Positions 22,577 to 27,976 of a DNA stretch of 45,427 nucleotides are shown here, piece after piece; positions within the stretch are counted from its first letter, which is position 1, and each line of letters begins with the position of its first letter. The stretch spans positions 38,969 to 84,395 of the forward strand of contig JAHDYM010000002.1 of the NCBI GenBank assembly GCA_023383705.1, in the 5' to 3' direction. The stretch is from Gammaproteobacteria bacterium. Its GTDB lineage: Bacteria > Pseudomonadota > Gammaproteobacteria > Steroidobacterales > GCA-2729495. Both the position numbers and the translations under genes were made by a program. The notes beneath the pieces are model-generated. The model saw only the letters and a program-made list of their open reading frames with translations. It was not told where the DNA came from and did no database searches.

Positions 22577-23038
22577 ATGACCAGGATTTACGTAGGTAAT
22601 CTGCCTTACACCGCCGATGAAGCGTCGGTTCGTGAGCTGTTCTCGCAACACGGGACGGTAGACGCCGTGCGCCTGATCAACGATCGCGAGACTGGCCGTT
22701 TCCGCGGCTTCTGCTTTGTGGAGATGCCGGAATCGGACGCGCAGAACGCAATTGCCCGTCTTAATGGTCACGACATGGGTGGCCGCCAGTTGCGTGTCAA
22801 TGAAGCCCGTGAGCGTGAAGGCGGTGGCGGCGGCGGCGGTGGTGGCGGCGGTGGTCGTCGCGGTGGTTACGGCGGTGGCGGTGGCGGCGGTGGTGGCTAC
22901 GGCGGTGGTGGCGGCTACGGTGGTGGCGGCCGCGATGGCGGTGGCGGCTACGGCGGCGGTGGTCGCGATGGCGGTGGCGGTTATGGCGGCGGTGGCCGCG
23001 ATGGCGGCGGTCGGGGACCGCGCGGACCCCGCTACTGA
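22577..23038 (+). CDS. Glycine-rich RRM RNA-binding protein
   Basis: 153 residues: one RNA-recognition motif (1-80) plus a Gly/Arg/Tyr tail. RNP2 is IYVGNL (4-9) and RNP1 is GRFRGFCFVEM (about 40-50), with the aromatic residues needed for RNA stacking. The tail from about residue 85 is almost pure glycine with Tyr and Arg-Asp, including three 11-residue repeats of type GGGGYGGGGRD, ending GRGPRGPRY. Such proteins act as RNA chaperones and are often cold-induced; the low-complexity RGG-like tail may drive RNA clustering. ATG at 22577 lies downstream of a plausible long leader. A strong terminator follows at 23102. Confidence 0.93.
   Translation: MTRIYVGNLPYTADEASVRELFSQHGTVDAVRLINDRETGRFRGFCFVEMPESDAQNAIARLNGHDMGGRQLRVNEAREREGGGGGGGGGGGGRRGGYGGGGGGGGGYGGGGGYGGGGRDGGGGYGGGGRDGGGGYGGGGRDGGGRGPRGPRY
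22921..23010 (+). repeat. 33-bp tandem repeats in the glycine-rich tail
   Basis: The coding DNA for the GGGGYGGGGRD units repeats with a 33-base period, about three copies, with mostly synonymous GGC/GGT differences. It keeps the frame and can expand or shrink by recombination or slippage without truncating the protein. Confidence 0.7.
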
Positions 23039-23144: not shown

Positions 23145-23221
23145 TGGTGGGCCCGCCAGGACTTGAACCTGGGACCAACGGATTATGAGTCCGCCGCTCT
23201 AACCAACTGAGCTACAGGCCC
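23145..23221 (-). tRNA. tRNA with CAU anticodon, probably tRNA-Ile2 (lysidine)
   Basis: 77-base cloverleaf on the minus strand: acceptor GGGCCTG paired with CGGGCCC (one U-G pair), D-arm TAGCTCAGTTGGTTAGAGC, anticodon loop CTCATAA with anticodon CAT, T-arm GGTTCAAGTCC, discriminator A and encoded CCA. CAU may be elongator Met or the Ile2 isoacceptor whose C34 is modified to lysidine by TilS. Acceptor pairs 4 and 5 are C-G, as in E. coli Ile2 and unlike elongator Met (U and A at 4 and 5), so I favour Ile2. An extended -10 element lies just upstream. Confidence 0.95.
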
Positions 23222-23317: not shown

Positions 23318-23902
23318 ATGGCCCGCCGTACAGCAGATTTGCCGCCACTCACTGGTCTACCGCATGTGGTGCGCGAGCTGCGTTACCAGGAAGTGATGCG
23401 GCAGGGGGTTGGACTGGCCCTGATGCCGGTTTTCGCCTTCTTTTCAACGCCCTTTCCCGCCGCGTTCTGGGCTGGAGCGTTTTTTGTGGCCGCTGGCTCC
23501 CTGTTGCGTGTGTATGCCTCGGGATTCATCGTCAAGAACAGGCAACTGGCGACCGAAGGCCCCTATTCGCTGGTTCGGCATCCGCTGTATACCGGCAATC
23601 TGCTGATCCTGATCGGTTTCACGGCCGCCTGTGCCCGCTGGTGGGCGCCGCTGGTGGCGGTGGCTTTCTGGTGGTTCTACTACCCGGTTGCGATCCAGTA
23701 CGAAGATCGCAAGCTGCAGCGTATTTTCGGTACGGAGTGGGAGCGCTGGAGTACCACGGTGCCGGCCGTGATTCCCCGCAGGCTGCTGCCGCGCGGGCCG
23801 GCCAGCTGGTCGCTGATGACCTCGCTGCGCCAGAACCTGGAGCCGGTGGTGCTGTTGTTTACCCTCATCTGCTTTGCCTGGATCGGCATGCGGACGGGAT
23901 GA
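23318..23902 (+). CDS. ICMT/PEMT-like membrane methyltransferase family protein
   Basis: 194-residue integral membrane protein of the isoprenylcysteine carboxyl methyltransferase / phospholipid methyltransferase superfamily. Four to five helices are visible. The SAM-binding signature is near the middle: RQLATEGPYSLVRHPLYTGNLL (His/Pro/Tyr/Asn in VRHPLYTGN), followed by a hydrophobic hairpin and YYPVAIQYEDRKLQRIFGTEWERW, where the conserved E-x-x-L..F.G..W element sits. The methyl acceptor is unknown. ATG at 23318 gives a normal N-terminus. It is the first gene of a tight three-gene unit (22 bases to the kinase). Confidence 0.85.
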   Translation: MARRTADLPPLTGLPHVVRELRYQEVMRQGVGLALMPVFAFFSTPFPAAFWAGAFFVAAGSLLRVYASGFIVKNRQLATEGPYSLVRHPLYTGNLLILIGFTAACARWWAPLVAVAFWWFYYPVAIQYEDRKLQRIFGTEWERWSTTVPAVIPRRLLPRGPASWSLMTSLRQNLEPVVLLFTLICFAWIGMRTG

Positions 23903-23924
23903 GCCGGCCGGGTCTTGCAGTCTG

Positions 23925-24581
23925 ATGGCACAGGCAGAACGATTCCTGAGCCGTGGCTACCAGGGCGTTGTCCGCCTGCGTGATACCGATGCGGGTCCGG
24001 TCGTCGTCAAGCAGGCGATGGGACGGGGGCTTGCACTCTGGCTGCGCCGGGCGATGCTGCGACGCGAGTTTGCGGTCTATCAGCGCCTGGACGGCGTTCC
24101 CGGCGTGCCACGCTGTCTCGGCATGGAGGCGGATGGCAGCCTTCTGCTCGAATATGTCGAGGGTGAGCCGTTTCGTGAAACAGCGGCAGCCCTGCATGAT
24201 CGCGAGCGGTTTTTCAGCGAGTTGCTGCGCTCCATCCTCGCCGTGCATGCAGCAGGTGTGGCGCACGCCGATCTCAAGCGCCGCGGTAACATCCTGATCA
24301 GTCCGGATGGCAGTCCCGTGCTGCTGGATTTTGGCTCTGCAGTGCTGCGGAGTGCAGGCGGTGGCTGGCTGAATGGCCTGCTGTTCCGCCAGGTCCGCCG
24401 CATGGACCTCAATGCCTGGGTGAAGCTGAAGTACCGGCGTCGCTACGAACTCATTGCCGCGGAAGATCGTGCCTACTACCACCCGACCGGAATCGAGGCC
24501 CTGGCGCGGTCACTTCGCCGCCTGTGGCGCAAGCTGAGTGGCCGGCAGTTGCGCAAGGCGCGGCGCCGGCGCCGCACATAA
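23925..24581 (+). CDS. Small Kdo/RIO-like kinase family protein
   Basis: 218-residue kinase-fold protein. Visible elements: ATP-binding lysine in PVVVKQA, catalytic loop HADLKRRGNIL (H114, D116, N122) and metal-binding LDFGSA (D135). The asparagine is six residues after the catalytic Asp instead of five as in HRDLKPEN, an insertion also seen, as I recall, in some lipopolysaccharide/RIO-type kinases. It could phosphorylate a lipid-linked sugar (Kdo or heptose) or a protein. The C-terminus is very basic (RLWRKLSGRQLRKARRRRR), suiting membrane or nucleic acid contact. Followed after 17 bases by the FMN protein. Confidence 0.8.
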   Translation: MAQAERFLSRGYQGVVRLRDTDAGPVVVKQAMGRGLALWLRRAMLRREFAVYQRLDGVPGVPRCLGMEADGSLLLEYVEGEPFRETAAALHDRERFFSELLRSILAVHAAGVAHADLKRRGNILISPDGSPVLLDFGSAVLRSAGGGWLNGLLFRQVRRMDLNAWVKLKYRRRYELIAAEDRAYYHPTGIEALARSLRRLWRKLSGRQLRKARRRRRT

Positions 24582-24598
24582 CGCTGAAGGGGGTGCCT

Positions 24599-26071
24599 GT
24601 GAGCTTTGTCCGCGAACTCCTGAACCTGCTGACTTATGCCTTCGTGTTTGCATTTGTCGCCGGCGTGGTCGCCGTTGCGGTCATGTACGTGATCGACATC
24701 ACGCAGACGAAACACGCGATCCGGCGCAACTTTCCGGTCGTCGGCCGCTTCCGCTACATGTTCGAGAACCTGGGCGAATTCTTCCGCCAGTATTTCTTTG
24801 CGATGGACCGCGAAGAGTTGCCGTTCAATCGTGCCGAGCGTGCCTGGGCATACCGGGCTGCCAAGGGCGTGGACAGCACCGTTGCCTTCGGTTCGACCCG
24901 CGACCTGCGCCCCATCGGCACGCCGATCTTCGTCAATGCGCCATTCCCGGCGCTGGATGAAGAGATCCGGCAGCCTGCGGCCGTGACCATCGGTCCGTAT
25001 TGCCGGACGCCCTACACGACTGACCGGTTCTTCCATATTTCGGCGATGAGTTTTGGCGCGATCTCGCGGCCGGCCGTGCAGGCGCTTTCGCGCGGAGCGA
25101 AGGCGGCAGGCTGCTGGCTGAACACCGGGGAGGGCGGGCTTGCCCCCTGGCATCTCGAAGGCGGCGCGGACATCGTCTTCCAGATGGGTACCGCCAAGTA
25201 CGGTGTGCGCGACGCATCGAGCCGCCTGGATGATGAGCGCCTGCGCGCAGTGGCCGCGCATGCGCAAGTACGCATGATCGAGGTCAAGCTGAGCCAGGGC
25301 GCGAAGCCGGGCAAGGGCGGCATTCTTCCCGGTGACAAGGTGACCCCTGAAATCGCGGCGATTCGCGGCATCCCGGCCGGCCAGGATTCGCTCAGCCCGA
25401 ACCGCCATGTCGAGATCGGCAACAACAGCGAGCTGCTCGATTTCATTCACAGGGTGCGCGAAATCAGCGGCAAGCCGGTCGGTTTCAAGACGGTCATTGG
25501 CTCGACCGACTGGCTGGATGAGCTGTTTCAGGAGATCGGTCGCCGCGGCATCGAGAGTGCACCGGACTTCATTACCATCGATTCAGGCGATGGCGGGACC
25601 GGCGCGGCACCCATGGCGCTGATCGACAACGTGGGCCTGCCGATCCGCGAAAGCCTGCCGCTGGTGGCCGACCTGCTGCGCCGGCACGGACTGAAGGAGC
25701 GGACCCGCCTGATCGCCAGTGGCAAGCTGACCACGCCGGCCAACGTTGCGCTGGCGCTGTGTGCGGGTGCCGACTTCGTGACATCTGCCCGGGGCTTCAT
25801 GTTCGCGCTGGGCTGTATCCAGTCGCTCCATTGCAACAAGAACACCTGCCCGACGGGCATCACCACGCACGACGAGCGGCTGCAACGCGGCCTGGTGCCC
25901 GAAGACAAGGCACGGCGCGTGATGCGTTACCAGCAGAACATGGAAAAGGAGGTCAATGTGATCGCCCATTCCTGCGGCGTCGCCGAGGCGCGCCAGCTGC
26001 GGCGCCACCACTGCCGGATCGTGCAGGCGGACGGGCGTTCGGTTCCGATCAGCGAGATCTACCCCGCCTGA
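24599..26071 (+). CDS. Membrane-anchored FMN/3Fe-4S glutamate-synthase-like protein
   Basis: 490 residues matching only the central FMN domain of glutamate synthase large subunit, without the glutaminase or GXGXG domains. An N-terminal helix ([20 protein letters not shown]) anchors it in the membrane. The barrel shows [57 protein letters not shown], and three cysteines at 406, 412 and 417 (C-x5-C-x4-C in [16 protein letters not shown]), the 3Fe-4S ligand spacing of GltB. It should bind FMN and an Fe-S cluster, but with no ammonia-producing partner its reaction is unknown. GTG at 24599 follows AAGGGGG. Third gene of the methyltransferase-kinase unit. Confidence 0.87.

Positions 26072-26104: not shown

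Positions 26105-27976
<1,872 letters not shown>

Follow-up and report, generated by a model that had tools for sequence, protein, structure and literature searches.

A conserved methyltransferase–kinase gene pair with a possible link to lipopolysaccharide modification

Introduction

Do three closely spaced genes, encoding a membrane methyltransferase, a small kinase and a glutamate-synthase-like FMN protein, make up one pathway? The question is raised by a locus in a 45,427-nucleotide stretch of a gammaproteobacterial genome (G000; 2.93 Mb, 96% complete), and we refer to that whole stretch as the window. A preliminary description of the DNA proposed that the three-gene set acts jointly on a membrane lipid or quinone. 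Part of this proposal stands: the first two genes do appear to belong together, and a membrane lipid is a plausible substrate. The inclusion of the FMN protein as a third member does not stand. What is left looks like an uncharacterised yet widespread module assembled from known enzyme superfamilies, whose two families carry generic annotation only ('isoprenylcysteine methyltransferase' and 'serine/threonine kinase').

Organization of the locus

The three plus-strand open reading frames were confirmed at their coordinates, with gaps of 22 bases between the methyltransferase and the kinase and 17 bases between the kinase and the FMN gene. Pfam matches for each gene agree with the initial reading of the products as an ICMT-like SAM enzyme, a kinase and a protein with a glutamate-synthase-like FMN domain. 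Gene 1 (23318..23902, ATG start, 194 aa) is predicted to encode an ICMT/PEMT-like integral-membrane SAM-dependent methyltransferase with the motifs RHPLYTGN and EDRKL. Gene 2 (23925..24581, ATG start, 218 aa) encodes a small RIO/Bud32-like kinase with an HxDxKxxxN loop and a DxNAWxKxKY signature, and gene 3 (24599..26071, GTG start, 490 aa) a single-domain FMN/3Fe-4S GltB-like protein with a predicted N-terminal membrane helix. Downstream, rpoD (26105..27976, minus strand) is convergent with the FMN gene, and adjoins it in most of the window's bacterial family. Upstream of the methyltransferase, on the opposite strand, lies a tRNA gene with a CAU anticodon (23145..23221, minus strand). This tRNA is called as Met, but its loop, CTCATAA, is one that we take to resemble the minor Ile (lysidine) tRNA and not Met. 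At 22577-23038 the window encodes a short RRM-like RNA-binding protein with a long glycine-rich tail, and the long Ala/Thr-rich or Val/Ala-rich open reading frames that overlap it in other frames are likely artefacts.

Conservation of the methyltransferase–kinase pair

The preliminary description took adjacency of the three genes in other genomes as one point on which its proposal would turn. In the co-occurrence survey, genes 1 and 2 stay adjacent and gene 3 does not. Scanning a genome collection with a kinase alignment returned 80 loci. They belong to Gammaproteobacteria, Desulfobacterota/'Deltaproteobacteria' and Acidobacteriota, and almost all come from metagenome assemblies, whose organism titles are only as reliable as the bins. 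In 66 of the 80 the methyltransferase directly precedes the kinase in the same orientation, at a median profile-to-profile distance of 100 bases. Eleven of the 14 loci that lack it form one supported clade of Lysobacterales/Wenzhouxiangella type (L157, L159, L160, L167, L169, L172, L174-L176, L178 and L179), two (L149 and L163) sit at a contig end, and L135 is the lone exception. Many loci of the methyltransferase-less clade adjoin genes resembling the olefin (oleABCD) cluster.

The same pairing holds at closer range. Among the window genome and 40 relatives, 19 genomes carry a full-length methyltransferase orthologue, and in 18 of these the kinase is adjacent on the same strand. The only exception, G023, has kept the methyltransferase and is missing the kinase, and in G017 the kinase match carries one in-frame TGA. 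Within genus g4, then, the kinase has a stop or is missing while the methyltransferase is intact (G017:C1:1008530-1009165; G023:C2:197621-198190). Across 349 phylum-wide genomes the kinase was found in two (E<=1e-25), and both have the methyltransferase next to it. The outer flanks of the pair are wholly different between lineages, being the rpoD region in some, the ribosomal rps/rpl/rpoA region in others, and LPS genes or other genes elsewhere; the persistence of the pair is therefore meaningful. Judged by gene order, the methyltransferase and the kinase are a conserved pair that is both tight and widespread.

Predicted properties of the two enzymes

The methyltransferase scores above the Pfam cut-offs for both PEMT (44.9 bits, cut-off 25) and ICMT (27.5 bits, cut-off 24), and the motifs RHPxYxGN and EDxxL are present in all 65 full homologues. 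The closest PDB match to its AlphaFold model (pLDDT 86.9) is the ICMT structure 5vg9 (Z 10.5, rmsd 2.9, 128 aligned), followed by Ma-ICMT, 4a2n (Z 9.8, rmsd 3.4, 139 aligned). Foldseek alone gave no significant match for this model, its best hit (E 0.044) again being Ma-ICMT. By domain score, motifs and predicted multi-helix fold, the protein is an ICMT/PEMT-type membrane enzyme.

The kinase matches Pkinase (35.4 bits) and APH (29.0 bits). Its catalytic loop, HADLKRRGN (24264..24290, plus strand), runs from H114 to N122 as H114-A-D-L-K-R-R-G-N122 and is one residue longer than the common form HxDxKxxN, with a D to N spacing of 6 where 5 is usual. This peculiarity had been pointed out for the single protein and proves to be a family trait: H-x-D-x-K-x-x-x-N occurs in 80/80 homologues, and DxNAWxKxKY follows the DFG segment in 79 of the 80 loci. 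K29, E48, H114, D116, N122, D135 and G137 are invariant in 49 kinase sequences and F136 is nearly so. Because its catalytic residues are invariant in this set, the kinase looks active.

Genomic context and a possible role in LPS modification

A potential substrate for the pair is suggested by its neighbors in other lineages. The clearest case is G081 (L188), a gammaproteobacterium from a different family, where a single strand carries exbD, an msbA::lpxK fusion, a ycaR-like gene, kdsB, the methyltransferase and the kinase, and the curated-model scores for MsbA (690.6 bits), LpxK (262.8 bits) and KdsB (319.2 bits) are all over cut-off. Neighbors of the pair in Desulfobacterota include msbA-like, lpxK, lptG, heptosyltransferase-like and kdkA-like (Kdo-kinase-like) genes; lpxK (194 bits) and lptG (292 bits) score over cut-off, and the msbA-like gene, at 468 bits, does not reach the cut-off of 602, yet MsbA is its best model. 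In Acidobacteriota, an msbA-like gene directly follows the pair.

With fixed score cut-offs, an LPS-type gene is present in 16/81 pair or kinase loci vs 0/16 comparison loci. Restricting the count to loci longer than 9 kb outside the FMN-linked group gives 11/41 vs 0/16 (Fisher p 0.024), a comparison made against a small set, with loci that are phylogenetically clustered and model seeds drawn partly from the same loci, so that the enrichment is suggestive only. Within the family that the window comes from, the neighbors of the pair are the tRNA and rpoD, and some other lineages have ribosomal protein genes there; the link to LPS is thus not local. No O-antigen export genes are adjacent to the pair in the window. 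What leads us to infer a link between the pair and LPS is thus gene context in lineages beyond that family.

Since the window genome also encodes lpxK and an ordinary Kdo kinase, LPS is made there and the kinase of the pair must have another target. We considered whether the pair's kinase substitutes for an absent Kdo kinase and rejected this, as G000 and many of its relatives have both. The inner-core Kdo and heptose kinases KdkA and WaaP resemble the window kinase in being small and protein-kinase-like, and several lineages place LPS genes beside the pair. Unlike them, the window kinase has no Pfam match to PF06293 (Kdo/WaaP) at E<=1, in addition to its longer loop and the separate Kdo kinase in its genome.

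We tentatively read the pair as a two-enzyme module, excluding gene 3, that may modify LPS (lipid A/inner core) at the membrane, a reading we rate at just short of an even chance; LPS as the substrate, taken by itself, we regard as evenly balanced. Such a module would work on the cytoplasmic side of the inner membrane, either ahead of MsbA-dependent flipping or at about that stage. There the kinase would transfer phosphate from ATP onto a hydroxyl of a lipid A-Kdo/inner-core acceptor, after which the membrane-embedded methyltransferase would donate a SAM-derived methyl group; that same phosphate is its most attractive target, and a nearby group the alternative. The strict pairing of the two enzymes inside LPS operons points to an LPS modification that has probably not been described. 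Several points count against this module: the LPS link is absent from the immediate surroundings in the window's family, G023 keeps a methyltransferase without the kinase and the G017 kinase match has an in-frame stop, the resemblance of the methyltransferase to LmtA, which acts on lipid A, is weak and unspecific (see below), and the kinase fold is closest to RIO and lanthipeptide-synthetase kinases, which makes a protein substrate possible.

The last of these points leads to the strongest alternative, in which the kinase is a RIO/Bud32-like protein kinase that regulates the methyltransferase or the cell envelope, and the substrate of the methyltransferase is a small lipophilic or isoprenoid molecule, not LPS. 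The AlphaFold model of the kinase (pLDDT 88.4) has Rio2, 1tqi, as its best PDB match (Z 19.1, rmsd 2.9, 169 aligned) and aligns with Rio1 at Z 17.9 (rmsd 2.8, 168 aligned). The lanthipeptide-synthetase kinase CurKC is also among the closest solved folds. No direct WaaP or WbdD match is among the best-ranked ones, which favors neither reading. The kinase sequence has detectable similarity to the WbdD structure 4azw (E 0.0027). Pkinase is matched by all 49 family members examined, and the methyltransferase fold is that of ICMT, both in keeping with this alternative. However, the Kdo/WaaP and APH kinases share this fold and are themselves matched by 13/49 (PF06293, at E<=0.001) and 34/49 members, LPS genes adjoin the pair in several lineages, and no consistently neighboring gene presents itself as encoding a protein substrate. 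Taken together, we consider a regulatory protein kinase unlikely, though well worth keeping in view.

Precedents for sequential phosphorylation and methylation

A known system with related logic is WbdD, the terminator of the E. coli O9a O-antigen, which phosphorylates the terminal mannose and then methylates that phosphate (PMC3482155). Like the pair, WbdD combines a eukaryotic-like kinase with a SAM methyltransferase, and it acts on an LPS component. It differs in being one polypeptide with a soluble-type bacterial methyltransferase domain (PMC3482155), whereas the pair consists of two genes and its methyltransferase is an ICMT-like membrane enzyme.

LmtA, the Leptospira lipid A 1-phosphate methyltransferase, offers the complementary comparison. 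According to Hinckley et al. it is an ICMT/Ste14p-like enzyme that methylates a lipid A phosphate, and the window methyltransferase shares this membrane type. All 42 aligned methyltransferase members match the LmtA model TIGR04571 (NCBIfam) at E<=1e-5, but the window protein reaches only 51.9 bits, below the cut-off of 325, and two unlinked ICMT-like proteins of the same order, used as a control, score higher, at 81 and 78 bits. We have therefore dropped LmtA orthology as a main argument. The two control proteins (L218:143-883 and L219:138-884) are candidates for true LmtA-like enzymes in their own right.

Because the similarity to LmtA is unspecific, addition of the methyl group to phosphate is put forward purely as a hypothesis, and an improbable one. 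The complete scheme, a two-gene pathway in at least three phyla in which LPS (lipid A/inner core) is phosphorylated and the phosphate capped with methyl, is marginally more improbable again. Its consequences would be considerable. Methylated lipid A phosphate has so far been described only in Leptospira (PMC10248169), and if the phosphate were methylated, negative charge would be lost and surface and immune properties altered.

Both enzymes could instead act on LPS at separate sites, with the kinase phosphorylating Kdo or heptose and the methyltransferase modifying a sugar hydroxyl or carboxyl. The LPS context speaks for this arrangement as much as for sequential chemistry. Diverged relatives of the methyltransferase, nearly all belonging to a single family (f51) in another class, occupy core-sugar clusters with heptosyltransferase and lptF genes in 7 of the 9 loci examined, in genomes with no kinase of the pair's type at E<=1e-25, which favors this arrangement. 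The clusters around these relatives also count toward the LPS context of the module proposed above. The O8 homologue of WbdD has no kinase domain and transfers methyl straight to sugar hydroxyls (PMC3482155). The strict gene order and tight linkage of the pair, in contrast, suggest sequential chemistry, and we judge separate sites to be somewhat less likely than a regulatory protein kinase.

The FMN protein as a neighbor

The features first noticed in the FMN protein hold. Its single Pfam domain is Glu_synthase (PF01645; 289.7 bits, cut-off 20.4), and its PDB matches are limited to the FMN region of GltB (7mfm, 1ea0 and 6s6s). As described, the glutaminase and GXGXG domains are absent by Pfam and the Fe-S cysteines are kept, in a C-x5-C-x4-C pattern that starts at residue 406 and recurs in 26/26 full-length copies. 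The reported membrane helix corresponds to a single strong N-terminal hydrophobic segment (Kyte-Doolittle 2.71 at residue 14). The window genome offers the protein no glutaminase or GXGXG partner encoded on its own; its sole GATase_2 and GXGXG domains sit in a separate full-length GltB of 1557 aa. A role as GltB large subunit was rejected, since these domains are missing both from the protein and as separate partners. Gene 3 instead shares its N-terminal helix, FMN domain and 3Fe-4S cysteines with the single-domain FMN-binding glutamate synthase family, from which no tested feature separates it. Our literature search found no paper linking yerD with glutamate synthase, and the papers found on 'FMN-binding glutamate synthase', judging mainly by titles and abstracts, touch on the family only in passing.

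This family is far commoner than the pair, occurring in 91/185 sampled gammaproteobacterial genomes. At the ortholog level (>600 bits), the FMN gene is present in 24 of the 41 genomes made up of G000 and its 40 relatives, and ten of these 24 lack the pair; conversely, the pair is present and the FMN gene missing in G002, G020 and G037. The FMN gene comes close to the pair in relatives of the window alone. It lies within 2 kb of the kinase on the same strand in 19/80 kinase loci, at a distance of 27-31 bases in the closest relatives, 97 and 159 bases in two others, and 0.5-1.9 kb in 14 of the 19. A lipoprotein gene on the opposite strand and/or an EEP-family membrane protein gene usually lies between them. 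Because the genes are mostly this far apart elsewhere, the 17-base spacing in the window is best read as a derived state found in a few close relatives, which would most simply have arisen by loss of the intervening genes.

A single pathway in which all three proteins act on a membrane lipid or quinone is thus very improbable: the short gaps in the window and its close relatives and the 19 nearby loci favor it, but the FMN family has a much wider distribution, the pair and the FMN gene are each found alone, intervening genes are usual, and the recurrent neighbors of the FMN gene are different ones, so we rejected the three genes as one unit. Comparative genomics instead places gene 3 outside the module of the pair, as an independent FMN/3Fe-4S oxidoreductase, anchored in the membrane and belonging to a common but uncharacterised family, and the window locus is no reason to place the GltB-like protein in a lipid pathway.

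Elsewhere, the FMN gene repeatedly adjoins genes for an aldehyde dehydrogenase and/or a ThDP-dependent enzyme resembling acetolactate synthase, with examples at L043, L045, L048, L059, L195, L204, L205, L208, L209, L210, L212 and L217. In one relative (G012:C1:455254-456286; L060, L081), the FMN gene is split into several frames, with rpoD adjoining it as usual.
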